This document shows, one piece after another, positions 4,484 through 61,507 of a stretch of DNA of 64,000 nt; the first letter of the stretch is position 1; each line of letters begins with the position of its first letter. The position numbers were made by a program, and so were the translations under genes. The notes beneath the pieces are model-generated. The model was given only the letters and a program-made list of their open reading frames with translations. It was not told the origin of the DNA and searched no databases. The stretch is from Salipiger sp. H15 (GTDB lineage: Bacteria; Pseudomonadota; Alphaproteobacteria; Rhodobacterales; Rhodobacteraceae), in the NCBI RefSeq assembly GCF_040409955.1, contig NZ_CP123384.1:2613501-2677500 (forward strand), read 5' to 3'.

Positions 4484-4553
4484 TCTTCTCTTTCCAAATA
4501 CGCCGGGGGTGAGCCCGAAGGGCGAGGGGGCGGAGCCCCCTCCCGGCGCCCGG
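4484..4553 (-). repeat. Composite intergenic repeat, copy 1 (both modules)
   Basis: The TATTTGGAAAGAGAAGAA module lies on the minus strand (4484-4501). It is joined to a double-hairpin module read on the plus strand. Stem 1 is GCCC-GAA-GGGC (4513-4523). Stem 2 is GAGGGGGC-GGA-GCCCCCTC (4524-4542). It fills the gap between the DUF808 terminator and the tkt stop codon. The related copy at 53104 has the same module order. Confidence 0.75.
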
Positions 4554-4554
4554 A

Positions 4555-6573
4555 TCAGAGCAGGCCCTTGACCTTGGTGACCACGTTCTCCGCGGTGATG
4601 CCGAACTTCTCGTAGAGCACTTCCGCCGGGGCCGAGGCGCCGAAGCTGTCCATGCCGACGAAGGCCTGCTTGGCCTCGCGGCCGCGCTCGCCGAGCAGCC
4701 AGCGGTCCCAGCCGCCGAGGCGGGTGGCCGCCTCGACGCCGACGCGCACCGGACCTGCCGGCAGCACGCGCTTGCGATAGGCCTCGTCCTGCTGGGCGAA
4801 GAGCTCCATGCAGGGCATGGAGACGACGCGGGTGCCGATGCCCTCGGCCTGCAGCGCGTCGCGCGCGGCGAGGGCGATCTCGACCTCGGAGCCGGTGGCG
4901 ATGAGGATCGCCTGGCGCTTGCCCTCGGCCTCGGCGAGCACGTAGGCGCCCTTCGAGGTGAGGTTGTTGGTCTTGTGCTCGCGGCGCACGGTCGGCAGGT
5001 TCTGGCGGGTCAGCGACAGGACCGACGGCGTGGTCTTCTGCGTCAGCGCGATTTCCCAGGCTTCGGCGGTCTCGACGGTGTCGGCCGGACGGAACACCAG
5101 CGTGTTCGGCGTCGCGCGGCTGATCGCCAGGTGCTCGACCGGCTGGTGGGTCGGGCCGTCCTCGCCGAGGCCGATGGAATCGTGGGTCATCACGAAGACC
5201 GTCGGGATCTGCATCAGCGCGGCGAGGCGCATCGCGGGACGCGCGTAGTCGGTGAAGGCCATGAAGGTGCCGCCGTAGGGGCGCAGCCCGCCGTGCAGCG
5301 CCATGCCGTTCATTGCCGCCGCCATGCCGTGCTCGCGGATGCCCCAGTAGACGTAGCGGCCCTTGCGCTCGGAGACGTCGAAGACGCCGAGGTCACCGGT
5401 CTTGGTGTTGTTCGAGCCGGTGAGGTCGGCCGAGCCGCCCACGGTCTCGGGCATGATCGGGTTGACCACCTCGAGCACCATTTCCGAGCTCTTGCGGGTG
5501 GCGACCTTCGGGCCCTCGTCCGAGACCTGCTTCTTCAGCGCGCGGATCACCGCCGACAGCTTCTTCGGCGCGTCGCCGTCCTGCTGGCGGGTGAAGTCCT
5601 TCTGGCGGCTTTCCGACAGGGCGGCGAAGCGCTCTTCCCACTCGGCGCGATCGGCGGCGCCGCGGCTGCCGACCTCTTCCCACCAGGACTTGACGTCCGC
5701 GGGCACTTCGAACGGGCCGGTGGTCCAGCCCCAGACCTTCTTGGCCTCGGCGTTCTGCTCGGCGTTGGTCAGCGCGCCGTGACCCTTCGAGGTGTCCTGC
5801 GCGGCGTGGCCGAGGGCGATGTGCGTCTGGCAGGCGATCATCGTCGGCTGCGCGCTCTTCTTCGCCGCCACGATGGCCGCGTCGATCGCCTCGGGGTCAT
5901 GGCCGTCGATCTCGATGACTTCCCAGCCCGCCGAGCGGAAGCGCGTCACCTGGTCGGTGGCGTCCGAGAGCGAGACCTTGCCGTCGATGGTGATGCCGTT
6001 GTTGTCCCAGAAGACGATGAGCTTGCCCAAGCCGTAGCGGCCGGCGAGGGTGATCGCCTCCTGGCTCACGCCCTCCATCAGGCAGCCGTCGCCGGCGATG
6101 ACATAGGTGTGGTGATCCACGACCTTCTTGCCGAAGCGCGCGCGCAGGATCTCTTCACCCATGGCGAAGCCCACGGCGGTGGCGATGCCCTGGCCGAGCG
6201 GGCCGGTGGTGGTCTCGATGGCATCGGCGTGGAAGTTCTCGGGGTGGCCCGCGGTGCGCGCGCCCCACTGGCGGAAGTTCTTCACTTCCTCAAGGGTGAT
6301 CTGTTCGTCGCCGGCAAGGTAGAGCAGCGAGTAGAGCAGCATCGAGCCGTGGCCTGCCGAGAGGATGAACCGGTCGCGGTCCGCCCATTTCGGGTTCTTG
6401 GCGTCGAACTTGAGGTGCTTGGAATAGAGCACGGTCGCCACGTCGGCCATGCCGATGGGCATGCCGGAGTGGCCGGAATTCGCAGCCGCCACCGCGTCCA
6501 GCGTCAGCGCGCGGATGGCGCAGGCGCGGGTCCAGTGGTCGGGGTTCTTGGCTTTGAGTGCAGAAATGTCCAC
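4555..6573 (-). CDS. tkt: Transketolase
   Basis: A 672-residue thiamine-diphosphate enzyme that moves two-carbon units between sugar phosphates in the pentose phosphate and Calvin-type pathways. The N-terminal pyrophosphate domain shows [15 protein letters not shown] and the ThDP motif from GDGCLMEG to DNNG. The middle pyrimidine domain has the conserved [17 protein letters not shown], and the C-terminal domain begins near [20 protein letters not shown]. Length is standard for bacterial Tkt. The start codon is GTG at 6573 ([11 protein letters not shown]), with AGAGGAC upstream. It is a single gene, with no neighbouring cbb or fba genes in the window, so a housekeeping role is more likely than one in a CO2-fixation operon. 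Confidence 0.96.
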
Positions 6574-6921
6574 GGGGCTTTGTCCTCTTGCCGGAAGCCT
6601 GTTGACCGGCTCAATAGCAGCGCTGCCGATAAGTTCAAGCTTCGCGGCCGGATCCCCGCGTAAACTGGATGAAGCAAGGGCCGTAAGGCCTTGGAACTTC
6701 TGGCGAGCATTTTCCCGGCCCGCTTGTTATCCTTGACCGGACCGGAAGGGTGTTGATTCGCCTTTCCGATCTCTTTGGTATAGGTCGGCGGGAACGGTCC
6801 GCAGACCGGCCCGCGGGGCCGGGTGCGGAGGCGGGACAGGCTGGCCGGTGCGCGGGGGATGCCCCCGGACGGACGGCCCGGACCGGTACCCGGGAAGAAG
6901 ACAGGGAACAAGGGACGCAGG
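6574..6921. other. Divergent intergenic region tkt / coiled-coil gene
   Basis: These 348 bases must hold the promoters of tkt (leftward) and of the coiled-coil-zapA pair (rightward). A weak rightward candidate is TTGATT (6753-6758) with TGGTAT (6776-6781), 17 bases apart. A leftward candidate is TTGAAC with TATTGA around a GCAGCGCTGC palindrome near 6620. The region was checked for a 6S RNA, which lies near zapA in some bacteria, but nothing convincing was seen. No tRNA is present. Confidence 0.4.
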
Positions 6922-7437
6922 ATGAGCCAGATCGACGAGTTGCACTCCAGGATCACGCGCGCGCTCGACCGCATCTCGACCGGGGTCGAGATGCTGGGCT
7001 CGGTGCCGCAGGGCGAGGGCACGGGAGATGGCGAAGCGTCGGCGCTGCGCACGGCGCTGGACGAGGAGCGCATGGCCAATGCCCAGCTCGAGGAGCGGGT
7101 CCGGCAACTGCACGCGCAGCTCGAGGGCGGCGACGACGCCTCCGGCGAGGCCGAGGCGCTGGCCGCCCGGCTCGAGGCGCAGCGCGGCGCCATGGCGGCG
7201 CTCGACGGCGAGCTGCAGCGGCTGCGCCAGGCCAATGACATGCTGATGCGCTCGCAGGCCGAGATGCGCGCGGCGCTCGAGCAGGGGCTCGGCGAGCCGC
7301 ATCTCGTCAACCAGGCCATGCTGGCCGAGCTCGAGTCGCTGCGCGCCGCGCGCGGCGCCGAGGAGGCCGAGGCACGGGCGCTGATCGCCGGGCTCGAACC
7401 GGTGCTGGCCGCCGCCACCAAGACGGAGGACATGTGA
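6922..7437 (+). CDS. Coiled-coil protein encoded directly upstream of zapA
   Basis: A 171-residue soluble protein with no family I can name. Residues 30 to 150 are heptad-rich and alanine/glutamate/leucine-rich (for example EERVRQLHAQLEG and LDGELQRLRQAND), predicting a long coiled coil. There is no signal peptide or membrane segment. ATG 6922 (MSQIDELHSRITRAL) was chosen over an in-frame upstream start at 6823 because the extra 33 residues are arginine-, proline- and glycine-rich and unlike the rest. The stop overlaps the zapA start (TGATG), so the two proteins are probably made together. A cytoskeletal or divisome role is inferred only from that coupling. Confidence 0.75.
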   Translation: MSQIDELHSRITRALDRISTGVEMLGSVPQGEGTGDGEASALRTALDEERMANAQLEERVRQLHAQLEGGDDASGEAEALAARLEAQRGAMAALDGELQRLRQANDMLMRSQAEMRAALEQGLGEPHLVNQAMLAELESLRAARGAEEAEARALIAGLEPVLAAATKTEDM

Positions 7438-7859
7438 TGTCGCAGATCGAGGTCGAGATCCTGATCGGGGGCCGCAGCTTCGAGGTGGCCTGCCAGCAGG
7501 GCGAGGAACAGTACCTGCAGGCCGCCGCCCGGATGCTGGACACCGAGGCACAGGTGCTTGTCGGCCAGATCGGCCGCATGCCCGAGGCGCGGATGCTGCT
7601 GATGTCGGGGCTCATGCTGGCGGACAAGACCGCCGGGCTCGAGGACCGGCTGCGCGAGACCGAGGACCGGCTGCGCGAGGCCGAGGAACGCATCGCCGCG
7701 ATGGGATCCGAGCTGCGGGTGCTGCGTGACGCGCCGCCGCCCGAGCCCGAGCGGGTCGAGGTGCCGGTGATCCCGCGCAGCCTGACCGAGGCCATGGCCG
7801 AGCTCGCCGCCCGCGCCGAGGCGCTGGCCGAGGCCGTGGAAGAGAAGGCCACTGGCTGA
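7437..7859 (+). CDS. zapA: Cell division protein ZapA
   Basis: ZapA binds and bundles FtsZ protofilaments at the division site. The N-terminal globular domain is recognisable (VEILIGGRSFEVACQQGEEQYLQAAARMLD), followed by a dimerising coiled coil (LEDRLRETEDRLREAEERIAAM). At 140 residues it is longer than the roughly 100-110 usual for ZapA. The extra C-terminal part holds a proline-rich linker (PPPEPERVEVP) and a second alanine/glutamate helix. ATG 7437 was preferred over GTG 7434 because it overlaps the preceding stop and gives MSQIEVEI. It is the last gene before a repeat and the terminator shared with eno. Confidence 0.85.
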   Translation: MSQIEVEILIGGRSFEVACQQGEEQYLQAAARMLDTEAQVLVGQIGRMPEARMLLMSGLMLADKTAGLEDRLRETEDRLREAEERIAAMGSELRVLRDAPPPEPERVEVPVIPRSLTEAMAELAARAEALAEAVEEKATG

Positions 7860-7880
7860 CGCAACGCGCGTTCTACCAGG

Positions 7881-7986
7881 TCCGAATATCCCGGGGGAAT
7901 CCGCGAAGCGGACGGGGGCAGAGCCCCCTCCGGGCGTTCCGCCTGCGGCGCGGCCGGAACAGGGCGTATTTGGAAAGAGAAGAAGG
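7881..7986 (+). repeat. Composite intergenic repeat, copy 2 (both modules)
   Basis: The double-hairpin module (7881-7936) contains stem 1 TCCGC-GAA-GCGGA (7900-7912) and stem 2 GGGGGC-AGA-GCCCCC (7914-7928). After 29 further bases the module GTATTTGGAAAGAGAAGAAG follows (7966-7985). It lies between zapA and the eno terminator. Compared with copy 1, stem 1 is different on both sides yet still pairs. Confidence 0.75.
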
Positions 7987-8005
7987 GGCGGGCGCGCCCA
8001 TGAAA

Positions 8006-8030
8006 AAGGGCGGGGAATTTCCCCGCCCTT
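8006..8030. terminator. Bidirectional terminator between zapA and eno
   Basis: A perfect 12-bp inverted repeat, AAGGGCGGGGAA (8006-8017) and TTCCCCGCCCTT (8019-8030). On the minus strand it is followed by TTTTT, a clear U tract for ending eno. The plus-strand side ends in CGTCATTTC, as at the gap terminator. Confidence 0.8.
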
Positions 8031-8052
8031 CGTCATTTCAGAAGCGCGCCGC

Positions 8053-9448
<1,396 letters not shown>

Positions 9449-9577
9449 CTTGCAGCATTGTTTTTTGCCCTGCCGCGAAACGCCCCTAGGTTTTTGCTGC
9501 AGGTGCAAAGGCAATCGGCAGCAGGAAAGGCCGCGCGAGGGCCGCCGGGGGAGGACGGCGCCCTGCGGAGATTAGGC

Positions 9578-10765
9578 ATGGAACAGGAACTGAGCGAGAT
9601 CGGCCAGCAGGTCGCCGAGATGTCTGACCTTGACTTGCTCGAGCGGCAGGTCGCGGATTTCTCCGAGACGGTCGAGGCGATCCTGCCGGTGCTGCCAGGT
9701 TGGGTCATGCCGCTGGCGGTGCTGGGGCTGGCCTTCGTGATCGGGGTGCTGGCCTACCGGCTGGTGTTCGGACTTCTGACGCGTTTGGTGGCCGGGCGCG
9801 ACCTCTTCTGGCGCAGCCTCGTGTCGCGCACGCGGCGGCCGCTGCGCATGGGGCTGGTGGTGTTCTTCCTTGCCATCGGCGTCGCCGTCGCGCCGATGGG
9901 GGCGGACTGGCGGGACCTTGCGCAGCACGCGCTGCTCATCGCCTTCATCGTGCTGGTGGCTTGGGTGATCCACACCGCGCTCAACATCTGGACCACGGTG
10001 CACCTGCGCAAGTTCTCGCTCGACGCCGAGGACAACACGCTGGCGCGCAAGCACGTCACGCAGAGCCGCATCCTCGTGCGGCTGGCGGGCTGGCTGATCC
10101 TCATCGTCACGGTCTCGGCCATGCTGATGACCTTTCCGGGCGTGCGGCAATGGGGCGTGTCGCTGCTGGCCTCGGCGGGGGCGGCGGGGATCGTCGTGGG
10201 CTTTGCCTTCCAGCCGGTGCTGAAGAACCTCATCGCCGGGATCCAGCTGGCGATCACCCAGCCGATCCGCATCGACGACGCGGTGATCGTCGAGGGCGAG
10301 TGGGGCTGGATCGAGGAGATCACCGGCACCTACGTGGTGATCAAGATCTGGGACTGGCGGCGGCTGATCGTGCCGCTGAGCTACTTCATCGAACAGCCGT
10401 TCCAGAACTGGACGCGCGACGGGGCCTCGCTGATCGGCGGCGTGCTGCTCTATCTCGACCATTGCGCCGACATCCAGCGCATCCGCGACCGCATGGGCGA
10501 GATCTGCCGCGAGAGCGAGCTCTGGGACGGCAACGTGTGCCACCTGCAGGTCAACGACTTCCGCGAGCGGGTGATGGAGATCCGCATCCTCGCCTCGGCC
10601 CGCAATGCGCCGCGCACCTACGACCTGCGCTGCGAGATCCGCGAGAAGCTGATCACCTTCATCCAGCGCGAGATGCCCGAGGCACTGCCCCGCACGCGCG
10701 AGACGGTCTCGGTGGATGCGGCGCACCGGGCGAGCTCGCCGGGGATCGAGGTGGTGGGCGGCTGA
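9578..10765 (+). CDS. MscS-family mechanosensitive ion channel
   Basis: A 395-residue inner-membrane channel expected to open under membrane tension and release osmolytes. About four N-terminal hydrophobic segments (around residues 40-65, 90-110, 115-140 and 170-190) precede the pore helix. The glycine/alanine-rich pore helix and beta domain are clear: LLASAGAAGIVVGFAFQP, then LIAGIQLAITQPIRIDDAV, then the EGEWGWIEEITGTYV strand. The N-terminus before the membrane has an acidic helix (EQELSEIGQQVAEMSDLDLL). ATG 9578 was chosen because GCGGAG precedes it; an in-frame ATG at 9458 would add a basic stretch. It converges with the EamA gene, with only 9 bases between the stops. Confidence 0.88.
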   Translation: MEQELSEIGQQVAEMSDLDLLERQVADFSETVEAILPVLPGWVMPLAVLGLAFVIGVLAYRLVFGLLTRLVAGRDLFWRSLVSRTRRPLRMGLVVFFLAIGVAVAPMGADWRDLAQHALLIAFIVLVAWVIHTALNIWTTVHLRKFSLDAEDNTLARKHVTQSRILVRLAGWLILIVTVSAMLMTFPGVRQWGVSLLASAGAAGIVVGFAFQPVLKNLIAGIQLAITQPIRIDDAVIVEGEWGWIEEITGTYVVIKIWDWRRLIVPLSYFIEQPFQNWTRDGASLIGGVLLYLDHCADIQRIRDRMGEICRESELWDGNVCHLQVNDFRERVMEIRILASARNAPRTYDLRCEIREKLITFIQREMPEALPRTRETVSVDAAHRASSPGIEVVGG

Positions 10766-10774
10766 GCCGCCGCC

Positions 10775-11665
10775 TCAGAGCCCCCGGTCCACGTCCCGCT
10801 GCTGCGCGCGCAGCAGCCGGTGCTCGCGCACGAAGGTGTAGAGCCCCGCGGTGAGGATCAGCGCCGCCCCGGCATAAGTCCAGCCGTCGGGACGGTCGCC
10901 GAAGAACAGGATGCCGAGGCTCGCGGTGAAGATCAGCCGCGTGTAGCGGAAGGGCGAGACCGCGGCGACCTCGGCAAGGCGCATCGCCGTGGTGACGGCA
11001 AGATAGCCGCCCGCGGTCACCGCCACCGCCGCCGCGATGGGCAGCATGGCGGGCGGGGTGAAGACCGGCGCCGAGCCGGAGAGCAGCATCAGCACCAGCC
11101 CGACCGGCGCGATCGAGACCATGCCCCAGGCCGAGACCACGACCGAGGGGATCTCGGCGGGCAGGGTGCGGGTGACGAGATCGCGCGCCGCAAGCCCGAT
11201 CACCCCGACCACGGCGAAGACCGTCCAGCCCGAGAACTCGGCGCCGAAGGGGCGGATCACCATCAGCATGCCGACGAGGCCGACACCGATCGCCGACCAG
11301 CGCCGCCAGCCGACGCTCTCGCCGAGGAACAGCGCCGCGCCGAGCGTCACCGCCAGCGGCGCGGTCTGCATGATCGCCGCCATGACCGAGAGCGGGATGT
11401 GCGACAGGCCGATGATCATGCCGAGGCCGCCGACCATCTCGAAGACGTTGCGCAGCAGCACCCGCGGGTGGAAGGCGTCGGCGCGGCGCAGCGGCAGCTT
11501 CCTGAGCCGCGCGAGGATCAGGAAGACGCAGCAGCCGCCGAGGCCGATGGCCATCATCACCTGCCCCGAAGAGGCCGCGCGGGTCGAGAGCTTGATGAAG
11601 GCATCGCTGAGGGCCAGCAATGCCATGCCAAGCACCATCAGCGAGATGGCGCGTAGGGTATCCAT
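10775..11665 (-). CDS. EamA/DMT-family transporter
   Basis: A 296-residue ten-helix drug/metabolite transporter with two EamA repeats. The first repeat covers residues 1-140 and includes RNVFEMVGGLGMIIGLSHIP and the conserved TAPLAVTLGAALFLGE. The second ends with FRYTRLIFTASLGILFFGD. Such proteins move metabolites or amino acids across the inner membrane; the substrate cannot be read from sequence. It starts 15 bases after the pgm stop on the same strand and so is probably the last gene of the glycogen transcript. A role in exporting a sugar or metabolite from that pathway would be speculation. Confidence 0.85.
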   Translation of the reverse strand: MDTLRAISLMVLGMALLALSDAFIKLSTRAASSGQVMMAIGLGGCCVFLILARLRKLPLRRADAFHPRVLLRNVFEMVGGLGMIIGLSHIPLSVMAAIMQTAPLAVTLGAALFLGESVGWRRWSAIGVGLVGMLMVIRPFGAEFSGWTVFAVVGVIGLAARDLVTRTLPAEIPSVVVSAWGMVSIAPVGLVLMLLSGSAPVFTPPAMLPIAAAVAVTAGGYLAVTTAMRLAEVAAVSPFRYTRLIFTASLGILFFGDRPDGWTYAGAALILTAGLYTFVREHRLLRAQQRDVDRGL

Positions 11666-11680
11666 GGTCTTGTCTTTCGT

Positions 11681-15176
<3,496 letters not shown>

Positions 15177-37869: not shown

Positions 37870-37920
37870 CGCGCCTGTCGCGTTAATCGGTCAGTGCGCC
37901 CGTTGCGGGGTCGCGACGTG

Positions 37921-37942
37921 CGTATTTGGAAAGAAAAGAAGG
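37921..37942 (+). repeat. Composite intergenic repeat, copy 3 (module A)
   Basis: CGTATTTGGAAAGAAAAGAA lies 51 bases after the uvrA stop and merges into the terminator stem. A related hairpin (AGGGGGGC at 38000-38007, GCCCCCCT at 38011-38018) lies just beyond and may be the remains of the double-hairpin module. Confidence 0.65.
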
Positions 37943-41049: not shown

Positions 41050-41095
41050 GGCGCGCGTTGACCCCAGGCGGCGCGTGGGGAGACGCGGTGCCATG

Positions 41096-41135
41096 AGTAT
41101 TTGCGGAAAGATGAAAGGCGCGATGCAGCGCCTTT
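41096..41135 (+). repeat. Composite intergenic repeat, copy 4, with hairpin (coxS-coxL junction)
   Basis: GAGTATTTGCGGAAAGATGA begins at 41096 and runs into AAAGGCGC (41114-41121) paired with GCGCCTTT (41128-41135). The whole unit sits between two genes of one operon, 47 bases after the coxS stop. Confidence 0.65.
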
Positions 41136-43677: not shown

Positions 43678-43702
43678 TGAGTATTTGGAGAAAGATGAAA
43701 GG
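43678..43702 (+). repeat. Composite intergenic repeat, copy 5 (coxL-coxM junction)
   Basis: GTGAGTATTTGGAGAAAGAT continues into GAAAGGG. It matches the coxS-coxL copy closely and has the same orientation as the operon, with 48 bases remaining to coxM. Confidence 0.65.
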
Positions 43703-46063: not shown

Positions 46064-46090
46064 GGGAGTACTTGGGGAAAGATGAAGGGC
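46064..46090 (+). repeat. Composite intergenic repeat, copy 6 (variant)
   Basis: GAGTACTTGGGGAAAGATGA, starting at 46066, differs from the commonest form by several substitutions. It lies between cobQ and yitT. GAAGGGC at 46084-46090 can pair with GCCCTTC at 46139-46145. Confidence 0.55.
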
Positions 46091-50828: not shown

Positions 50829-50853
50829 CACGCCGCCCTTGTCTGAATGCGCC

Positions 50854-50890: not shown

Positions 50891-50902
50891 ACGCCCCCGG
50901 TC

Positions 50903-52964: not shown

Positions 52965-53103
52965 GTGAGGTCCGTCCTTTGCCGCGTCATAGCAGGCGCG
53001 GCGGGGCTTGGCGACAGGGCCCAGCCCAAAACCCGCGCATTTCGGGATTTCCCGAAATGCCGAAATGCCGCCGCAGCGCTAGAGCAATCCCCGGCCTCTT
53101 TCC

Positions 53104-53169
53104 CTTCTTCTCTTTGAAAATACGCCGGGGGTGAATTCACCGAAGGTGAAGAGGGGGCAGCGCCCCCTC
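53104..53169 (-). repeat. Composite intergenic repeat, copy 7 (both modules)
   Basis: CTTCTTCTCTTTGAAAATAC (53104-53123) is the minus-strand form of the first module. The double-hairpin module follows with stem 1 TTCACC-GAA-GGTGAA (53136-53150) and stem 2 GAGGGGGC-AGC-GCCCCCTC (53151-53169). Layout is as in copy 1, with a completely different stem 1 that still pairs. Confidence 0.75.
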
Positions 53170-53181
53170 CCGCCGCGGGGT

Positions 53182-54054
53182 TCAGCTCCGACCGCGCGCC
53201 TCGAAGCGCGGCAGCATGGCCGAGAAGTCGCGGCCGCGCCCGTCCTCCTCCTCGACGAAGGCGCGGTAGAGCTCGAGCGCCCGCGCGCCCATCGGCGTGT
53301 CGGCGTCGGCCGCCTCGGCCGCCTGCTGCGAGAGCCCGAGGTCCTTCAGCATGAGCTCGGCGGCAAATCCGGGCTTGTAGCCGTTGTCGGCGGGCGATTT
53401 CGGCCCCACGCCCGGCGCCGGGCAATAGGCGTTCATCGACCAGCTGTAGCCCGACGAGGTCGAGACCACGTCGAACATCGCCTCGCGCGAGAGGCCGAGC
53501 TTGTCGGCCAGCGCGAAGGCCTCGCAGGTGGCGATCATCGTCACGCCGAGGATCATGTTGTTGCAGATCTTCGCCGCCTGGCCATTGCCCGACGGGCCGC
53601 AATGCACCGCCTTCTGGCCCATCACGTCGAAGAGCGGCCTTGCCTTGGCAAAGGCCGCGTCCGCGCCGCCCACAATGAAGGTCAGCGTGCCCGCCGCCGC
53701 GCCGCCGATGCCGCCAGAGACCGGCGCGTCGAGCGCGCCGAGCCCGGCCGCCTGCGCCTCTTCCGCCACGGCGCGGGCGCTCTCGACGTCGACGGTCGAG
53801 CAGTCGAGCAGCACCGCGCCCGGCGCCATGGCCGGGATCACCTCGCCCGCGACGGCCCGCAGGATCGCGCCGTTCGGCAGCATGGTGATCACCACCTCCG
53901 CGCCCGAGGCCGCCTCGGCCGCCGTGCCCGCCCGCGCCGCGCCTTCGACCGTGACGCCCGCCACGTCGAACCCCGTCACCTCGTGCCCCGCGGCGACGAG
54001 GTTGGCGGCCATGGGCGCGCCCATGTTGCCCAGCCCGATGAACCCGATCTTCAT
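53182..54054 (-). CDS. mmsB: 3-hydroxyisobutyrate dehydrogenase
   Basis: A 290-residue NAD-dependent beta-hydroxyacid dehydrogenase that oxidises 3-hydroxyisobutyrate to methylmalonate semialdehyde in valine breakdown. The Rossmann start IGFIGLGNMGAPMAANL, the substrate loop DAPVSGGIGGAAAGTLTF and the catalytic lysine in GNGQAAKICNNM are clear. MmsB identity is supported by the preceding hydrolase and acyl-CoA dehydrogenase genes, the earlier steps of the same pathway. It starts 50 bases after the hydrolase gene. The semialdehyde dehydrogenase gene mmsA is not in the window. Confidence 0.94.
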   Translation of the reverse strand: MKIGFIGLGNMGAPMAANLVAAGHEVTGFDVAGVTVEGAARAGTAAEAASGAEVVITMLPNGAILRAVAGEVIPAMAPGAVLLDCSTVDVESARAVAEEAQAAGLGALDAPVSGGIGGAAAGTLTFIVGGADAAFAKARPLFDVMGQKAVHCGPSGNGQAAKICNNMILGVTMIATCEAFALADKLGLSREAMFDVVSTSSGYSWSMNAYCPAPGVGPKSPADNGYKPGFAAELMLKDLGLSQQAAEAADADTPMGARALELYRAFVEEEDGRGRDFSAMLPRFEARGRS

Positions 54055-54104
54055 GTCTCTCTCCTCCCTTCGAACCCGTCGAACCGGCCGCCGGAGCGCC
54101 TTGC

Positions 54105-55136
54105 TCAGAGCGCCAGCTCGTCCTCTCCCAGCGGCGCCAGCAGCGCCGCGACCTTCTCCGCCGGCACGCCGTCCAGCGCCTGGCCCCAGCGCGGCGTGCG
54201 GTCCTTGTCGATGAGCTGCGCGCGCACCCCCTCGAGGAAATCCCCCTCCGACATGATGCGGAAGGCGACGCGGTATTCCTGCGCCAGCGCGGCGGTGATG
54301 TCCTGCGGGCGAGGGCCGAGCCGTGCCAGCATCTCGAGCGAGGTCGCCATCGAGAGCGGCGAGTTGCGCCGGACCTGCTTCAGCGCGGCCTGCGCGAGTT
54401 CGCTCTCGGAACCGGCCAGCGCCGCCTCGATCGCGACCAGCTCGCCGGAGCCGTAGAGCGCGTCGATCTCCGCCCGCGCCGCCGCCATCGGGCTGACCGG
54501 GGCAGGGCGCGCGGCCTCCTCGAGCGCCGAGACCTCGCCGGTCTCGATCAGCCGCTCCTTGAGCAGTCCCCAGCCCGCCTCGGGCACGAAGAGGTCAGCG
54601 AAGCCCGCGTGGATCGCATCCCCCGGGCCCATGCGCGCGGCGGTCAGCGCGAGATGCGCGCCGAGCCTCCCCGGCGCGCGCGCCAGCAGGTAGGAGCCGC
54701 CCACGTCCGGCACGAAGCCGATGCCGCATTCGGGCATGGCGACCTGCGCGCTCTCGCCCACAACCCGATGCGAGCAATGCCCGCCGAGCCCGACGCCGCC
54801 GCCCATGATGAAGCCGTGCAGGAAGCTGACGATCGGCTTGGGGTAGGCGGCGAGCTTGGCGTTCATCCGGTACTCGTCGGCCCAGAAGCGGCGACCGAAG
54901 GCAACGTCGCCCTCGCGCCCGCGCCGGTACATCTCGGCGATGTCGCCGCCGGCGCAGAAGGCCCGCTCACCTTCCCCGTCGAGGATGACCAGCGCCACCT
55001 CGGGATCCTCCGCCCAGGCGTCGAGCGCCGTCTCGGCCGCAAGGCACATCTCCCAGCTGAGCGCGTTCAGCGCCTGCGGGCGGGTGAGCGTGATATGCCC
55101 GGCGCGGCCGGACTTGCGGGTGAGGATGTCGGTCAT
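54105..55136 (-). CDS. 3-hydroxyisobutyryl-CoA hydrolase
   Basis: A 343-residue crotonase-fold protein of the HIBCH group, longer than ordinary enoyl-CoA hydratases because of a C-terminal domain. Oxyanion-hole parts are ERAFCAGGDIAEMY and HGFIMGGGVGLGGH. The catalytic region MPECGIGFVPDVGGSYLLAR and the C-terminal EYRVAFRIMSEGDFLEGVR are HIBCH hallmarks. It frees 3-hydroxyisobutyrate from CoA in valine breakdown. Its ATG overlaps the stop of the acyl-CoA dehydrogenase gene (ATGA). It has been labelled enoyl-CoA hydratase in many genomes, which would miss this role. Confidence 0.9.
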   Translation of the reverse strand: MTDILTRKSGRAGHITLTRPQALNALSWEMCLAAETALDAWAEDPEVALVILDGEGERAFCAGGDIAEMYRRGREGDVAFGRRFWADEYRMNAKLAAYPKPIVSFLHGFIMGGGVGLGGHCSHRVVGESAQVAMPECGIGFVPDVGGSYLLARAPGRLGAHLALTAARMGPGDAIHAGFADLFVPEAGWGLLKERLIETGEVSALEEAARPAPVSPMAAARAEIDALYGSGELVAIEAALAGSESELAQAALKQVRRNSPLSMATSLEMLARLGPRPQDITAALAQEYRVAFRIMSEGDFLEGVRAQLIDKDRTPRWGQALDGVPAEKVAALLAPLGEDELAL

Positions 55137-56275
55137 CGGTTTCCGATCAGGCTGCGCGCGGTGATCATGCGCATGATTTCATTGGTTCCCTCGAGGATCT
55201 GGTGCACCCGCAGGTCGCGCACCAGCTTCTCGATCCCGTAGTCGGCAAGATAGCCGTAGCCGCCGTGCAGCTGCAGGCACTGGTCGGCGACGCGCGAGCC
55301 CGCCTCGGTCACGAATTTCTTCGCCATGGCGCAGAACTTGGTGGCGTCGGGCGCGCCGGTGTCGAGCTTCCAGGCCGCCTGGCGCAGGAAGACGCGGGCC
55401 GCCTGCAGCTCGATCTCCATGTCGGCAAGGCGGAACTGCAGCGCCTGGAACTGGTCGAGGCTCTGGCCGAAGGCCTGCCGCTCGGCCATGTAGCCCAGCG
55501 TCGCGTCGAGCGCCGCCTGCGCCGCGCCGAGCGAGCAGGCCGAGATATTGAGCCGCCCGCCGTCGAGCCCGGCCATGGCGTAGCGAAAACCCTTGCCCTC
55601 CTCGCCGAGCAGGTTGCCGAGCGGCACCTCGCAGCCGTCGAGCTGCACCTGCCGCGTCGGCTGGCTCTTCCAGCCCATCTTGTCCTCGAGCCCGCCGAAG
55701 CTGAGCCCCGGCGTGCCGTCCTCGACGAGGATCGCCGAGATGCCCCTGGGCCCGTCCTCACCGGTGCGGCACATGACGAGATAGGCATCCGAATAGCCGC
55801 CGCCCGAGATGAAGGCCTTGGTGCCGGTCAGCCGGTAGCTGTCGTTGCTCTTCTCGGCGCGGGTGCGCAGCGCCGCCGCGTCAGAGCCCGAGCCGGGCTC
55901 GGTCAGGCAATAGGAGAGCACCGTCTCCATGGTCAGCGCGCCCGGCAGCACCCGCGCCTTCAGCGCCTCGGAGCCGTAGGCGTCGATCATCTTCGCGCAC
56001 ATGTTGTGGATCGACAGGAACGCCGCCACCGAGGGGCAGGCCATGCTCAGCGCCTCGAAGACCAGCGTCGCGTCGAGCCGGGTCAGCCCCGAGCCGCCGC
56101 TTTCCTCCGAGACGTAGAGCCCGCCGAAGCCCAGTTCCGCCAGCTTCGGCCAGAGATCGCGCGGGATCGTGCCCGCCGCCTCCCAGTCGCGGGCGAAGGG
56201 CGCGATGTGCTCCTGCCCGAAGGCCTTCGCCATGTCGAAGATCGCCTGCTGTTCCTCGCTCGGTGCAAACTCCAT
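55133..56275 (-). CDS. Acyl-CoA dehydrogenase, probably isobutyryl-CoA dehydrogenase
   Basis: A 380-residue FAD enzyme that introduces an alpha-beta double bond in acyl-CoA. Typical parts are the flavin and substrate loop YCLTEPGSGSDAAALRT, the strand GTKAFISGGGYSDAY, LDGGRLNISACSLGAAQAAL and the C-terminal HQILEGTNEIMRMI, which contains the catalytic glutamate. Context with 3-hydroxyisobutyryl-CoA hydrolase and mmsB points to isobutyryl-CoA; short branched acyl-CoA would be the alternative. It is the first gene of the module and has a TetR-like palindrome upstream. Confidence 0.92.
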   Translation of the reverse strand: MEFAPSEEQQAIFDMAKAFGQEHIAPFARDWEAAGTIPRDLWPKLAELGFGGLYVSEESGGSGLTRLDATLVFEALSMACPSVAAFLSIHNMCAKMIDAYGSEALKARVLPGALTMETVLSYCLTEPGSGSDAAALRTRAEKSNDSYRLTGTKAFISGGGYSDAYLVMCRTGEDGPRGISAILVEDGTPGLSFGGLEDKMGWKSQPTRQVQLDGCEVPLGNLLGEEGKGFRYAMAGLDGGRLNISACSLGAAQAALDATLGYMAERQAFGQSLDQFQALQFRLADMEIELQAARVFLRQAAWKLDTGAPDATKFCAMAKKFVTEAGSRVADQCLQLHGGYGYLADYGIEKLVRDLRVHQILEGTNEIMRMITARSLIGNR

Positions 56276-56321
56276 GGGGCCTCCCTTTCCCGCCGGCTCC
56301 GGGGCCTCCCAACCCCGGAAA

Positions 56322-56335
56322 TGAACACTCGTTCA
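56322..56335. promoter_or_regulatory. TetR-like palindrome upstream of the valine module
   Basis: TGAACACTCGTTCA has perfect five-base arms (TGAAC and GTTCA) around four bases, 47-60 bases before the acyl-CoA dehydrogenase start. TetR-family repressors of acyl-CoA catabolism often bind sites of this form. The regulator gene is not in the window. Confidence 0.5.
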
Positions 56336-56403
56336 GAACATGGCGGGAATCGCGGGGCGATGCAAGCCGCCGCCCCGCGCGAGACGCCCGCATCTTCCAC
56401 ATG

Positions 56404-56509
56404 GGTAAAATATCCCGGGGGAGAGGCGCGCAGCGCCTCGGGGGCAGAGCCCCCAACGCCGCGCCCGCCGGCACGGGCGGGACATGAGTATTTATGGAAA
56501 GATGAAAGG
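56404..56509 (+). repeat. Composite intergenic repeat, copy 8 (both modules)
   Basis: The double-hairpin module (56404-56454) has stem 1 GAGGCGC-GCA-GCGCCTC (56423-56439) and stem 2 GGGGGC-AGA-GCCCCC (56440-56454). After about 30 bases, GAGTATTTATGGAAAGATGA (from 56486) runs to the stop codon of the glycosyltransferase gene. Layout is as in copy 2. Confidence 0.75.
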
Positions 56510-56510
56510 C

Positions 56511-57683
56511 TCAGGCCGCGCCGGAGCGGAGGGCGATCACGCGGCGGATCTCGTCCTCGACCTTGCCGAGCAGCACCGCGTTGTCGAACTTCTCCTCGGC
56601 CATGGCGCGGGCGGCGCGGGACATGGCGCCGCGGTCGGGCAGGTCGAGCACGCGGGCGATGGCGGAGGCGAAGGCCGGCTCGTCCCACTCGGGCACGAGA
56701 TAGCCGTTGACCCCCTCGATCACCGCCTCGGGGATCCCCGCGTGCAGCGTCGAGACGGTGATGCAGCCCGCCGCCAGCGCCTCCTGGATGGCGGTGGGCA
56801 GGCCCTCGGTGTTGCCGTTCCTGTCGGTGATCGAGTGCTGCAGGAAGGTCTCGGTGGTCAGCAGGTGCTCGCGCACCGCGTCATGCGGCAGCGCGCCGGT
56901 GAAGGTGACCTGCTCCGCGACGCCGAGCTCGGCGGCGAGCGCGCGGCAGGGCTCGAGCAGCGGCCCGTCGCCGATGAAGGTCAGGTGCGCCTCGCGCCCC
57001 TTCGCGGCGGCGGCAAAGGCGCGCAGCGTGACCTGCGGCGCCTTCTTGTCGACCATGCGCCCGACGGCGAGGCAGGAGCCCGGCACCTTCTCGCCGGGCA
57101 CGAAGCGGCGCACGTCGACGCCCGAGGGCACGACGTGGGAATTGGGATGGGTGACGCCGTGTTTCGCGAGGTTGTCGAGCAGGAACTGCGAGACCGAGAA
57201 GATCCCGTCGAGCCGCGGCATCATCTTGCGGTAGCTCTTCACCCGCTGCGGCGAGGTCAGCGCGCGCGACGCATCTGTGCCGCGGAAATAGCTGAAGACC
57301 GGCAGGTTCATCTCGTTCGCGAGCTTCGCGACGACCAGCGCCTGGGTGCCGAACTCGGCGAGGATGACCTCGACCTTCTGGTCGTGCAGCCATTCCATGA
57401 GGCGGGTGCGGTTGGCGCCGAAGGGCAGGCGGCCGGTGCCCTCGGTCAGCGCGTTCCAGCCCATCGCGACGGGGGCGATCACCTTGTCCGAGATCGAGAG
57501 CTTGGAGCGGCGCTCGAAGAGCGGCTTGCCGTAGGGGTTCCTGCCGTTGAACCGGCCGCAGAGCACCACCGTGTCGCCGCCGAAGATGTGCTCGATGTGG
57601 CGGTTGATGAAGGTCTCGCCCGGCACGTGGTAGTCGGAGGTGACGATGCAGGTCTTGAACTGGGGCTTCTCTGGGCGGCTCAT
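56511..57683 (-). CDS. Glycosyltransferase family 4
   Basis: A 390-residue GT-B fold retaining glycosyltransferase. The acceptor half starts KTCIVTSDYHVPGETFINRH. The donor half carries the family signature EGLPTAIQEALAAG with the E-x7-E arrangement, preceded by LTFIGDGPLLEPC and followed by GVNGYLVPEWDEPAF. Such enzymes build surface polysaccharides or glycolipids; sugar and acceptor are unknown. It has no polysaccharide-gene neighbours, being placed between the TRAP transporter and the valine module, with 90 bases to the former. Confidence 0.88.
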   Translation of the reverse strand: MSRPEKPQFKTCIVTSDYHVPGETFINRHIEHIFGGDTVVLCGRFNGRNPYGKPLFERRSKLSISDKVIAPVAMGWNALTEGTGRLPFGANRTRLMEWLHDQKVEVILAEFGTQALVVAKLANEMNLPVFSYFRGTDASRALTSPQRVKSYRKMMPRLDGIFSVSQFLLDNLAKHGVTHPNSHVVPSGVDVRRFVPGEKVPGSCLAVGRMVDKKAPQVTLRAFAAAAKGREAHLTFIGDGPLLEPCRALAAELGVAEQVTFTGALPHDAVREHLLTTETFLQHSITDRNGNTEGLPTAIQEALAAGCITVSTLHAGIPEAVIEGVNGYLVPEWDEPAFASAIARVLDLPDRGAMSRAARAMAEEKFDNAVLLGKVEDEIRRVIALRSGAA

Positions 57684-57773
57684 GCGGGATCTCCCGGGGT
57701 CTTCGTGCCGCGCCTACATGCCCTTGATGACCCCGCCGCGCAAGGGCGGCGGGGCCGGGGTCTTTGCTTCAGC

Positions 57774-59216
57774 TCATTCGCCGTAGGCCATGGCCGGCAA
57801 CCACGTGGTCAGCGCCGGGAACTCGAAGACGATGAGCAGGCCGAGGAGCTGGAGCATCACGAAGGGCACGATCCCCTTGTAGATGTGGCCCAGCGTGACG
57901 CCCGGCGGGCAGACGCCCTTGAGGTAGAAGAGCGCGAAGCCCACCGGCGGTGTCAGGAACGAGGTCTGCAGCGTCACCGCCACGAGGATCGCGAACCACA
58001 CCACCTGCGGGTCGCGCACCTGGTCGAAGCCGGGCACGGCGATGTCGAGCCCCTGGATGATCGGCAGCATCAGCGGCATGATGATGATGGTGATCTCGAT
58101 CCAGTCGAGCAGGAAACCGAGGCAGAAGACGATGAACAGGATGAAGCCGATCGTCAGGTAGGGGTTGTCGAAGGCCGAGAGCACCAGGTGCTGCACGATC
58201 TCGTCCCCGCCGAAGCGGCGCAGCACGAAGGCGAAGAAGTTCGCCGCGAGGAAGATGCCGGTGATGTAGCCCGCCGTGTTGAGCGTCGAGCGTGCCACCT
58301 CGCGGAACACCTTCCAGTCGAGCTTGCGGTTGATCAGCGCCAGCACCGTCGCGCCGAGCGCGCCGAGGCCCGAGGCCTCGGTCGGGGTGGCGATGCCGAC
58401 GAAGATCGAGCCCAGCACGAGCAGGATCAGGAACATCGGCGGCACCACCGCCAGCGCCACCTCCTTGACCTCGTCCATGCCCACCTTGCCGGATTTCTCC
58501 GGTGCGGGCATCGAGGAGGGCGAGATGAAGCCGTAGATCACGATGAAGACGATGTAGAGCGCGCCGAGGATGAGCCCCGGGAAGAGCGCCCCCATGAAGA
58601 GGTCGCCGAGCGAGATCGCCAGCTGGTCCGACATGATCACCAGCATGATCGACGGCGGGATCAGGATCCCGAGCGTGCCGGCGCTCGCGATGGTCCCGGT
58701 CGCGATGGGTTTCGAGTAGTTCTGCGCCATCATCGCGGGCAGGGCCATCACCCCGAGCAGCGTCACCGAGGCGCCGATCACCCCGGTCGAGGCGGCGAGG
58801 ATGATGCCGATCAGCAGCACGGTCAGCGACAGGCCGCCGCGCAGCGAGCCGAAGAGCTTCTGCATCGCGTGCATCATGCGCTGCGCCACGCCCGACTGGT
58901 CGAGCATCAACCCCATGTAGATGAACATCGGCAGCGCCACGAGCACCGGGTTGTTGACGATGTTGCCGAAGAGACGGCCGGACAGCGCCAGCAGGCGGTT
59001 GTACTCGAGCCCGATGCGGTCGAACTCGATCACGTCCTTGAACTCGGCGCGGAACGGGTCGAGCAGGATCTGCGACAGGATGACGAAGATCAGGCTCACC
59101 CCGACCAGCGACATCGCCACGGGGATGCCTCGGAACAGCATGTAGATGAAGGTCAGGAACATCGCCGCGACGGCGATCTCGTTCAGCGTCAGGTATTGGC
59201 CGAGAAAGTGCAGCAT
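57774..59216 (-). CDS. TRAP transporter large permease (DctM family)
   Basis: A 480-residue twelve-helix sodium-coupled permease. Family features are GIILAASTGVIGASVTLLGV, SAGTLGILIPPSIMLVI and GFLLDWIEITIIIMPLMLPI. The start was taken at ATG 59216 (MLHFLGQYLTLNE), with AAGGAG 10 bases upstream inside dctQ; the frame reaches further to 59255 but overlaps dctQ coding sequence. It lies one base after the dctQ stop. Together with the DctQ and DctP proteins it should import an organic acid. Confidence 0.93.
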   Translation of the reverse strand: MLHFLGQYLTLNEIAVAAMFLTFIYMLFRGIPVAMSLVGVSLIFVILSQILLDPFRAEFKDVIEFDRIGLEYNRLLALSGRLFGNIVNNPVLVALPMFIYMGLMLDQSGVAQRMMHAMQKLFGSLRGGLSLTVLLIGIILAASTGVIGASVTLLGVMALPAMMAQNYSKPIATGTIASAGTLGILIPPSIMLVIMSDQLAISLGDLFMGALFPGLILGALYIVFIVIYGFISPSSMPAPEKSGKVGMDEVKEVALAVVPPMFLILLVLGSIFVGIATPTEASGLGALGATVLALINRKLDWKVFREVARSTLNTAGYITGIFLAANFFAFVLRRFGGDEIVQHLVLSAFDNPYLTIGFILFIVFCLGFLLDWIEITIIIMPLMLPIIQGLDIAVPGFDQVRDPQVVWFAILVAVTLQTSFLTPPVGFALFYLKGVCPPGVTLGHIYKGIVPFVMLQLLGLLIVFEFPALTTWLPAMAYGE

Positions 59217-59217
59217 C

Positions 59218-60006
59218 TCAGCGCTCCTTCCGCGCGAGGAGCCGCGCCACGACAATCACGACCACGGTGGCGACGAGGGCCAGCGCGATGGTCTTCTTCA
59301 TTTCCCACGGCCCGACCGCGAAATCGTCGAAGATCGCGGCGCGGGTGGCGGTGCGGATGCTGTCCACCTCGGGGTCGGTCACCATCAGCCAGCCGACGCA
59401 GGCGTACCAGATGACCAGCTGCAGCCCGAACACGGTCGAGGGCAGGGCGAAGAGCAGCTGCTTCCACAGCAGCGGCCGGGTCAGCTGCGACAGGTGCCGC
59501 ACGTAGGCCGCCCAGATCGCGATGCCGATGACGATGAAGCTGACGTTCATCAGCGACTTCAGGATCCACAGGTTGTGCAACCCGTTCGGGCTCGACGAGC
59601 CCTCGTCGGCGATGATGGCGGTGAGCGCGTAGTCCAGCGTCACGTCCCAGCACAGCATGATGAACGGCAGGAACAGCCAGACCAGCGCGATGATGTCGAT
59701 GATCAGCCGCTTCCGCCGCTCGAAATTGTCATAGAAGATGTCGACGCGCACGTGGCTGCCCGTGGTCACCGCGTAGGCGATGCCGATCAGCACGGCGATG
59801 CCGTAGAGCCACCACTGCAGATCGTCGAGCCAGGCCTGGTTGTGGCCGGTGCCGCGCAGGATCACCTGCGCGCAGATGGCGACGATCAGGATGGGAAAGA
59901 GCCACGCGACGAGATTGGACAGGTGCACGATGAACCTGTCGCCCCGGTTCTGGTCCTTGCGTCCGATCTCTCCGGGGTCGGAGATGGCGACCTTGAATTC
60001 CTCCAC
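59218..60006 (-). CDS. TRAP transporter small permease (DctQ family)
   Basis: A 262-residue four-helix membrane subunit, longer than the roughly 170 residues of the DctQ prototype but normal for the TakQ/mannitol-chloroaromatic subgroup. Helices include IVHLSNLVAWLFPILIVAIC and LLFALPSTVFGLQLVIWY. The conserved part TTGSHVRVDIFYDNFERRKR lies near residue 90. GTG 60006 was preferred over a TTG at 60069 because AAGGACAAGG precedes it. It is separated from dctP by 143 bases that contain a strong hairpin. Confidence 0.85.
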   Translation of the reverse strand: MEEFKVAISDPGEIGRKDQNRGDRFIVHLSNLVAWLFPILIVAICAQVILRGTGHNQAWLDDLQWWLYGIAVLIGIAYAVTTGSHVRVDIFYDNFERRKRLIIDIIALVWLFLPFIMLCWDVTLDYALTAIIADEGSSSPNGLHNLWILKSLMNVSFIVIGIAIWAAYVRHLSQLTRPLLWKQLLFALPSTVFGLQLVIWYACVGWLMVTDPEVDSIRTATRAAIFDDFAVGPWEMKKTIALALVATVVVIVVARLLARKER

Positions 60007-60113
60007 GGGCCTTGTCCTTTGTTCTGCCTGCCTTGTGGGATCGGCGTCCGGGCTCCGTGGAGGCCGCAACGCGAAAACGGCGCGCCCCCGAAGGTCCTGG
60101 CGCGCCGGAGGGG

Positions 60114-60133
60114 GCCGGGCCCGGGGGCCCGGC
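60114..60133 (-). repeat. Hairpin between the TRAP binding-protein and permease genes
   Basis: GCCGGGCCC (60114-60122) and GGGCCCGGC (60125-60133) form a nine-base stem 16 bases after the binding-protein stop. No U tract follows on the minus strand, so readthrough is expected; it may protect the dctP part of the mRNA. Confidence 0.5.
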
Positions 60134-60149
60134 GGTCAGCCGTCTTGCC

Positions 60150-61199
60150 TCAATTCCAGGGGCGCGGCAGGTAGATGTTGTTGAACCAGGTCTTGTAGCC
60201 CGCGCGGAACTCGCTCAGGTCGGCCCAGGCCTTGGCGAACATCTCGTCCTCGGCCTTCAGCTCTTCCACGACCTCGAGCCAGGCGGTCTCGAACTGCTTG
60301 AGCTGCTCGGGGGTCCAGTTCTTGATCGTCACGCCATGCTGCTCGACGTTCTCGACCATGGCCGGGAAGTTCTTGGCTTCACCTTCCGCGAAGTTGTCGG
60401 TGAGGTTGGCCATGCAGGCGATCTCGATCTGCTTCTGGCTCTTCTCGTCGAGGTCTTCCCAGCGATCCTTGTTGATCAGCAGTTCGAACATGGTGGCGGG
60501 CTGGTGCCAGCCGGGGAAGTAGTTGTACTTGGCGATGTTGTAGAAGCCGAGGTTGGCGTCCACGATCGGCATCGAGAACTCGGTCGCGTCGATCGCGCCG
60601 CGCTCCAGCGCCGGGAAGATGTCGCCCGCGCCGAGCAGCGAGGTCGACACGCCCAGCTTCTGCATCACCTCGGCGCCGAGGCCGAAGAAGCGCATGTTCA
60701 GGCCCTTGAGATCGTCGAGCGAGTTGATCTCCTTCTTGAACCAGCCCGAGGTCTCGGGGGCGTAGGAGCCGCAGAGCACCACGTGCACGTTGTAGCCGTT
60801 GGTGTCGTACATTTCCTGGAACAGCTTCATGCCGTCGTCGTAGAGCATCCAGGCGAGCATCTCGCCGGGCTCGGGGCCGAAGGGCACGGCGGCAAAGAGG
60901 CCGGCGGCGGGCATCTTGCCCTGCCAGTAGCCCGAGGTCGAATAGGCCGCGTCCACCGAGCCGTTCGACACGGCATCCAGCATCTCGAGCGCGGGGACGA
61001 GTTCACCCGGATCGAAATGTTCGAAGGCCACGCTGTCGGAGATCGAGTTGATCTTGTCGACGAAGTTGACGGCGGCGGTGCCGAGGATCGGCAGGTTCTT
61101 GGAATAGCCCGAGGTCATCTCGAGCGTTTCCTGCGCCGAGGCCGCACCGACAAATGCGAAGGCGGCGGCCGAAACGGCCGTGAAGGTCTTGTTGATCAT
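60150..61199 (-). CDS. TRAP transporter solute-binding protein (DctP family, TakP-like)
   Basis: A 349-residue periplasmic binding protein. The signal peptide is [20 protein letters not shown] with cleavage after ASA near residue 22. The mature protein contains [20 protein letters not shown], the conserved [19 protein letters not shown] and [15 protein letters not shown], close in layout to TakP and related 2-oxo-acid or monocarboxylate binders. The ligand is inferred only at that level. AGGGAGGAT precedes ATG 61199. Two 8-base direct repeats lie about 55 bases upstream. Confidence 0.92.
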
Positions 61200-61507
61200 G
61201 GTATCCTCCCTGTGTCGGCACCCCCTCCCAAGGGCACCGCAGGCAATTCATGCCTAACGAAACGCTAACGAAGCCTCACGGCGCTGTGAATACCCAGTTA
61301 TGCGTAGGTCTTGGCAAGATAATTGCTGACGCTGGGGAAGTTACGGAAGATTCCGCCGCGCCGCTTGTGCCGCCGCGCCGCCTTCGCCTTTCATCTTTCT
61401 GCAAATACTCAAATCCGGCCGCCGCATCCGCCGCGCCCCGGCATGGGCGCTTTTCATCCGCGCGGTCCTGCGCTATTCCCGCGCGAAACGGGGTCTCGGA
61501 GGTTGGC
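61200..61507. other. Divergent intergenic region TRAP operon / purM
   Basis: These 308 bases separate the TRAP binding-protein gene and purM. They hold the direct repeats CTAACGAA at 61254-61261 and 61265-61272 (11 bases apart, one helical turn) and repeat copy 9 at 61387-61411. A GGAGG ribosome site lies just before purM. No convincing sigma-70 promoter could be fixed for either gene, and no RNA gene or riboswitch is seen. Confidence 0.5.
61387..61411 (-). repeat. Composite intergenic repeat, copy 9 (module A)
   Basis: CTTTCATCTTTCTGCAAATA followed by CTC is the minus-strand form of GAGTATTTGCAGAAAGATGA, very close to the coxS-coxL copy. It lies about 100 bases before the purM start. Confidence 0.65.

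Follow-up and report, generated by a model that had tools for sequence, protein, structure and literature searches.

In TnpB and TldR systems, an omega-RNA carries a scaffold hairpin followed by a short guide, and a T-rich motif lies 5' of the target. IS110 bridge RNAs are non-coding RNAs in which short guides specify DNA targets. Repetitive extragenic palindromes and bacterial interspersed mosaic elements (REP/BIME), together with REP-associated tyrosine transposases (RAYTs), form numerous composite hairpin repeats at gene ends, in several classes per genome. The DNA uptake sequences of Neisseriaceae and Pasteurellaceae have species dialects and occur as inverted pairs near gene ends, and are spread through genes too. 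Here we describe intergenic repeats of Salipiger sp. H15 (below H15), a member of the Rhodobacteraceae, found in a stretch of 64,000 nucleotides (the window; G000:C1:2613501-2677500) of its 6.1-Mb genome. Each repeat contains a site, module A, which in some copies adjoins a unit of two hairpins, module B. The dialect of module A is specific to the genome and is matched, elsewhere in that genome, by a guide-like segment next to a conserved hairpin, P3. We directly observe the sites with their dialects, the loci that join P3 to a guide, the match between guide and site, and their joint change at two orthologous regions. We put the probability that a guide-directed system uses the repeats as its target sites at about 0.5.

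The likeness to TnpB and TldR systems is threefold: on the strand that reads P3-guide a hairpin precedes a short guide, TATTT stands three letters before the 11-mer of the site, and in three genomes the scaffold and the motif have changed jointly. Unlike these systems, no TnpB-like gene is seen next to the annotated loci, the intergenic targets of one guide number from tens to about a hundred in H15, guide and site regularly differ by a single T-to-C change, and there is no Rfam match. A short guide that specifies DNA is proposed here as for the bridge RNAs, whereas no such recombinase is annotated at the loci seen and there is one guide segment instead of two loops. The repeats share the gene-end position, hairpins and multiple classes of REP/BIME; unlike REP/RAYT, they come with no Y1 transposase, set a variable 11-mer beside recurring hairpins and change dialect in place. 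They share dialects and inverted pairs with the uptake sequences, from which they differ in lying within genes in only 3 of 97 cases, in having several dialects per genome and in having guide loci. At the gathering score, Rfam returned nothing for the window or for 16 P3 loci; in E-value mode, seven loci gave 11 matches, all below the family gathering scores. ARAGORN predicted no tRNA or tmRNA in the window or in four loci. String and topic searches of title and abstract listings, in a literature thin on subscription journals, did not return the repeat sequence.

Module A exists in several dialects that share one frame with fixed spacing: two letters, TATTT, three free letters and an 11-mer. 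C-type sites read CG-TATTT-NNN-AAGAGAAGAAG and lie in the window at 4502 (-), 7965 (+), 37921 (+, a variant) and 53124 (-). A-type sites read AG-TATTT-NNN-GAAAGATGAAA and lie at 41096 (+), 43680 (+), 46067 (+, with TACTT), 56487 (+) and 61409 (-). The third dialect, D-type, reads GA-TATTT-NNN-ACATGTGGAAG and bears two of the four module Bs of the window. The first-pass annotation had named nine module A positions, and a copy is present at all nine; a tenth that it did not list is the D-type site at 56414 (-), there CCATGTGGAAG. The string that it quoted for module A, GTATTTGGAAAGATGAAAG, does not occur and has a single match with three mismatches; two dialects are merged in it. It had placed module B beside four sites; by reading, this stands near 4484 and 53104 (both C-type), while near 7966 and 56486 the hairpins belong instead to opposite-facing D-type copies.

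Across the whole genome, pattern matching found 109 C-type and 62 A-type sites, and reversed-pattern controls found none. Detailed counts cover 1.664 Mb (C1 1-1,600,000 plus the window), which holds 97 copies (51 C, 27 A and 19 D) against none for the control. A count of NN-TATTT-N3-11mer words, which made no use of the known words, gave CG-AAGAGAAGAAG 46 times, AG-GAAAGATGAAA 22 times, and GA-ACATGTGGAAG with its close variants 8, 5, 5 and 4 times; unrelated entries reached at most 2. A control count with TTTAT substituted for TATTT listed three entries per genome for H15 and for its congener G088, each of which occurred once.

The P3 hairpin, CGGTCATCGGC-N3-CC-N-GCCTGTACCG, lies in non-coding loci outside the window, directly beside the guide, an 11-nt segment that matches a dialect of the same genome. 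The copy beside P3 lacks TATTT. When the locus is read as 5'-P3-guide-3', the guide has the polarity of the site, 5'-TATTT-NNN-[11 nt]-3'. Most genomes checked have one to four such loci. The region C1:606440-607240, flanked by genes that we name as a 70-amino acid small protein and a glutathione-S-transferase-like protein, matches all 20 genomes of the genus set, H15 included. BLAST led to further P3 loci (16 stretches), of at least four kinds, each with its own dialect. Allowing up to three mismatches, the P3-plus-guide pattern found 42 loci in 17 of the 20 genus genomes, again including H15. Among 30 chosen genomes of the family, 29 had such loci, 68 in all and up to four in each; controls gave none in either set. 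Of the genus genomes lacking a match, G593 and G601 have a diverged P3 at the C1:606.5k locus and G609 has N there. In the three genomes in which a diverged P3 was read (G592, G593 and G601), GAGTTTA replaces TATTT at this locus, and such a joint change of scaffold and adjacent motif is expected if one protein reads both.

We then scored guides against sites over 10 nt in 25 of the 30 family genomes, for which site strings, a hand-typed selection among the anchored sites listed, were in hand before the guides were known; all 61 guides were used. Left out were G086 (no P3 match) and G020, G025, G417 and G452 (no site strings listed). In 20 of the 25 genomes, the best guide-site pair had no mismatch other than T in the site to C in the guide, compared with 28 of 600 cross-genome pairs. 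Exactly one such T-to-C difference was present in 16 of these 20 genomes, none in three and two in one. The mean score was 9.46, compared with 7.96 (sd 0.15) for shuffled pairings, none of which reached it in 5000. In the congener G088, three guides stand against three dialects. We consider it highly probable that the coupling of guide and site is real.

At two orthologous gaps, the site dialect shifts with the species' guide. At the C1:606.5k locus, read in 12 sequences, two inverted sites surround a segment containing P3 and, next to it, a third copy of the dialect that lacks TATTT. Guide and third site differed by no more than T-to-C in 9 of 12 congeners (0 of 10000 species shuffles); G608 and G088 have one mismatch and G600 two. 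In the tpiA/dctM gap, also in 12 sequences, most congeners keep the inner hairpin and a CGCCGGAGGC-like flank while the dialect is altered. The site fits one of the guides of its own species, with no difference beyond T-to-C, in 8 of the 10 sequences scored, with one mismatch in G605 and five in G600; G604 (no copy) and G609 (no known guide) were left out. That hairpin and flank are kept while the dialect follows the guide looks like rewriting in place and not re-insertion.

These data suggest the following mechanism. The P3 hairpin would be held, as RNA, by a putative protein, and the guide, probably RNA, would base-pair to the site on its CTTC strand; the single T/C difference that is usual would then form a G-U or G-T wobble. 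The protein would read TATTT as an adjacent motif. Gene ends carry many copies, which lie on either strand and often flank a GC hairpin as inverted pairs; these might separate transcription units as boundaries or roadblocks. After a guide mutation, selection would rewrite the sites in place, so that two, three or more dialects could stand side by side. A nucleic acid guide is probable in preference to reading by a protein, DNA is the slightly favored target, and the boundary or roadblock role is a tentative suggestion. The fuller proposal, which falls a little short of an even chance, is an undescribed system amplified in the Rhodobacteraceae and compact on plasmids of other Proteobacteria, in which a guide RNA with P3, together with a protein encoded elsewhere, would address tens to about a hundred TATTT-flanked gene-end sites per guide, with selection rewriting the sites after guide mutation to give two, three or more dialects per genome.

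An anchored pattern, GCCTCCGGCGGG-NN-TATTT-N6..14-GAAR, matched 199 of the 296 genomes of the family, with no control match in any of them, and none of 16 genomes of other families. Among the sites listed, the tails of a genome reduce to one or a few words, which vary from genome to genome; G088 has three dialects other than those of H15, ACGAAGAGAAG (16 copies), AACCAAAGAAG (12) and GCCAGAAGAAG (6), plus variants. Across the class, TATTTN6AGAWGAA matched 141 of 289 genomes, with 179 matches in H15 and at most 12 in any genome outside the family; the richest of these outside genomes had similar controls, and a few had three or four matches with a control of 0. The family member G055 has no such words in 200 kb. 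Among 94 adjacent gene pairs conserved between H15 and G088, 12 carry a copy by pattern match: seven in H15 only, three in G088 only and two in both. One of the H15-only pairs is tpiA/dctM, where by eye G088 has a copy in another dialect, so the copy is confined to one genome in 9 or 10 of the 12 element-bearing gaps. At a convergent gene pair at window position 10765, the gap measures 9 bases in H15 and about 160 in G088, where it holds copies. Of 40 pairs conserved between H15 and G597, two have an H15 copy and none a G597 copy. Among 80 named loci of DctM relatives, tpiA lies at most 2.5 kb downstream in 36; several have copies of another dialect and many have none. The congener G600 (loci L279, L287 and L299) has degenerate guides, no anchored sites and a decayed tpiA/dctM site, and may have lost these together.

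P3 also reaches the plasmids of other Alpha- and Gammaproteobacteria. We read nine plasmid or replicon regions in addition to those of Azospirillum, Paracoccus and Thalassococcus. P3-like matches outside annotated genes occur on plasmids or secondary replicons of Azospirillum, Rhizobium, Mesorhizobium, Shinella, Roseibium, Thiothrix and Legionella; one Neorhizobium match lies inside a hypothetical gene. Family members with P3 on such replicons include Paracoccus denitrificans, Phaeobacter, Thalassococcus and Cereibacter. Several regions hold a guide together with a site, which has AAATA or, in Azospirillum, AAGTA, and P3, guide and adjacent site are likewise found in Phaeobacter. The guide/site pairs are CCTAGCCCTTG/CCTAGCTCTTG in Rhizobium, GTCAAGGTCGG/GTCAAGGTTGG in Azospirillum and CTTCTCCGTTC/CTTCTTCGTTC in Paracoccus; the Mesorhizobium, Roseibium, Cereibacter and Thiothrix P3 loci have no clear site nearby. 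Plasmid matches inside genes, many in Streptomyces and Sphingobium, were taken as chance. Viral contigs gave no exact P3 match, phages two weak partial ones and E. coli none. A plasmid of the gammaproteobacterium Legionella longbeachae (L319, 4001-4026) has P3 with the guide ATCACGTC and a nearby ATCACGTC-GTT-AAATATCCCGGGG site before a recombinase-family gene. On Thalassococcus pS3A (L315, near 5027), the P3 locus stands between the genes for carotenoid 1,2-hydratase and TspO in the photosynthesis cluster; PcrZ was considered in view of a P3 locus flanked by carotenoid genes.

Copies present in one genome only, the 9-base gap facing one of about 160 bases, the composite module B common to several loci and species, and the compact P3-guide-site units on plasmids would all suit a guide-directed mobile element, with the P3 locus as master copy and the sites as its ends, spread like IS200/IS605 or REP-RAYT with a longer guide. 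The transposase of REP elements, which the first-pass annotation had brought up, was not found: the Y1 transposase profile PF01797 has no match in the whole H15 genome, whereas 5 of 14 control genomes match. The retained hairpin and flank at tpiA/dctM likewise look more like rewriting than re-insertion, and we regard mobility of this kind as possible but doubtful.

In a second alternative, paralogous DNA-binding proteins read one dialect each; the P3-side segment would serve the same protein as operator, and P3 would form the structured leader or the terminator of a local transcript. Fixed spacing around a free spacer does resemble a bipartite protein site. In addition, a TTAA-N7-TTA box, which we take to resemble a CtrA site, lies 24-25 nt beyond P3 in 16 of 27 loci, mostly orthologues of two loci, compared with 5 of 5400 shuffled windows. 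However, the P3-side copy has no TATTT and usually differs from the site by one T-to-C, and the 110 P3 loci contain 76 distinct guides against 31 distinct P3 sequences, in a search that itself favored similar P3. We consider protein-read sites unlikely. In these 110 sequences, pair 12-17 is TA in 63, GC in 41 and AT in four, with two exceptions; pair 11-18 is CG in 108 and GC in two, and pair 4-24 varies in 16 without compensation. The wobble and the TTAA-N7-TTA box favor 5'-P3-guide-3' as the RNA strand, whereas an invariant T-G pair of P3 favors the other.

Genes were predicted with our own gene finder, trained on codon-position GC and rerun on more sequence. As the first-pass annotation had claimed, the copies avoid genes: 94 of 97 lie outside predictions, and the three exceptions include one in a 207-bp prediction and one near a gene end. 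Considering gaps of at least 60 bp, copies occur in 30 of 141 convergent, 45 of 470 tandem and 3 of 224 divergent gaps; convergent gaps are enriched relative to the rest (p = 1.5e-6) and divergent gaps depleted relative to tandem ones (p = 1.7e-5). Relative to tandem genes, copies face either way about equally, 29 and 23 (14/11 for C, 10/6 for A and 5/6 for D), which does not favor a role of the sites in RNA sense.

Module B occurs 51 times in the 1.664 Mb, with a spacer of at least 10 nt, room for stem 1, in 38. Stem 1 arms of at least 5 bp (G-T allowed) form in 35 of these 38, compared with 30% of shuffled spacers; 20 distinct 5' arms occur, and the loop is TGC in 18 and TTC in five. Stem 1 thus stays paired through many arms, in support of the compensatory change noted earlier for the window copies. 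With the avoidance of genes and the gain and loss between congeners, this bears out the description of an intergenic repeat that is both composite and structured. In 46 of 51 copies (24 expected; 0 of 20000 shuffles), the G-run of stem 2 is as long as the later C-run of the tail. The G-run, the C-run and the tail C-run are mostly of equal length, as though either C-run could be a partner for the G-run, in a switch or a triplex. In many copies the short hairpin GCCTCCGGCGGG replaces module B, with 37 such matches in H15. Inverted pairs of sites are seen, whose two ends may differ in dialect; among 17 picked from the listed places, the spacer is equal in only three, so the arms are not maintained for pairing with each other. 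By eye and without statistics, many C- and A-type copies show CTTCTTCTC or CTTTCATC after a GC hairpin; the tail of D-type copies, CTTCCACATGT, is not rich in U.

Such hairpins with tails at gene 3' ends, and a wobble that suits RNA-RNA pairing, would fit a trans-acting small RNA that pairs with many mRNA 3' tails, the sites being U-rich terminator tails. Yet TATTT would lie beyond the end of that RNA and is conserved at a fixed distance, the orientation to tandem genes is even, the D tail lacks U-richness and, by eye, ordinary terminators often stand nearby too, making this account improbable. Finally, an ordinary REP-like dispersed repeat homogenized by gene conversion, in which the copy beside P3 would be one more degenerate copy, would accord with the concerted change generally known within repeat families, but is very improbable because the 11-mer stays uniform across copies whose adjoining hairpins and flanks vary, and P3-side copies follow the dialect across genera with a patterned T-to-C.

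Returning to the guide-directed system, we found several points that weigh against it. Five scored genomes do not fit: G093 (four mismatches), G507, G524 and G541 (two each, their site strings being incomplete or shifted) and G039 (one). Only 25 of the 61 guides fit a site of their genome among the sites listed, and 180 of 600 cross-genome pairs reach at most one mismatch. A guide's own genome ranks strictly first in just 12 of 25 cases because dialects recur among genera. G086 has sites and no P3 match, and the G600 guide is degenerate. In H15 itself, a whole-genome scan found two P3 loci, with guides for the D and C dialects, leaving the 62 A sites without a known guide, although a diverged P3 would escape the scan. 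Four congeners read at this place have a P3 locus of the A-dialect kind where H15, between the same flanking genes (C1:1583376-1583790), has an unrelated small open reading frame, although its A sites persist.

Other such points concern the P3 locus and its neighbors. The T-G pair, invariant in 110 of 110 P3 sequences, pairs only with the opposite strand as RNA, and the constancy of P3 is partly built in by the three-mismatch pattern, the diverged P3 showing that change is possible. Annotated P3 neighborhoods share no common gene and include no TnpB-like protein; a search for a TnpB motif found nothing among 1578 proteins predicted from the 1.66 Mb. On four plasmids (L316, L318, L322 and L323), a replication gene is the nearest neighbor of P3 on one side, and another role, linked to plasmid replication or maintenance, may be indicated by these neighbors. 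Guide-matching sites occur only beside the P3 locus in 200 kb of P. denitrificans chromosome 2, in 50 kb of Azospirillum and on the Rhizobium plasmid, apart from one further partial site match in P. denitrificans that lacks AAATA; mass dispersal is therefore not general. Lastly, we infer the transcription of P3 and its strand, the existence of the protein, DNA and not RNA as the target, and the boundary role.

The features of the window are collected in Table 1. Among the loci listed, the closest relatives of its DctM protein are from Rhodobacteraceae, first Salipiger pentaromativorans with 93%.

Table 1. Sites and module B hairpins in the window, in window coordinates
Positions	Strand	Feature	Basis
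4482..4503	-	C-type site, CG-TATTT-NN-AAAGAGAAGAA	pattern match
4504..4545	-	module B of C-type site: G/C run, stem 1 GCCC-GAA-GGGC, stem 2 GGGGGC-GGA-GCCCCC	sequence reading
7876..7930	-	degenerate D-type site GGGATATTCGGACC (~7876-7895) and module B: stem 1 TCCGC/GCGGA, stem 2 GGGGGC-AGA-GCCCCC	sequence reading; outside the D-type count
7964..7985	+	C-type site	pattern match
37920..37941	+	C-type site, variant AAAGAAAAGAAG	pattern match
41095..41117	+	A-type site	pattern match
43679..43701	+	A-type site	pattern match
46066..46087	+	A-type site with TACTT, preceded by GCCTCCGGCGGG mini-hairpin	pattern match
53104..53125	-	C-type site	pattern match
53126..53170	-	module B: G/C run, stem 1 TTCACC-GAA-GGTGAA, stem 2 GGGGGC-AGC-GCCCCC	sequence reading
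56394..56416	-	D-type site GGGATATTTTACCCATGTGGAAG	pattern match
56417..56456	-	module B of D-type site: stem 1 GAGGCGC/GCGCCTC, stem 2 GGGGGC-AGA-GCCCCC	sequence reading
56486..56508	+	A-type site	pattern match
61388..61410	-	A-type site	pattern match

Even if the sites were read by proteins only, an 11-bp word that changes in concert throughout its many sites would be a striking case of co-evolution in need of explanation. If the guide reading is true, a major bacterial family would have a native, guide-directed marking of many gene ends, and its dozens of genera, with differing matched pairs of guide and site, would form a natural experiment. The guide would be compact, with about 11 nt of pairing and a TATTT motif, and the testable question would be which protein holds P3.

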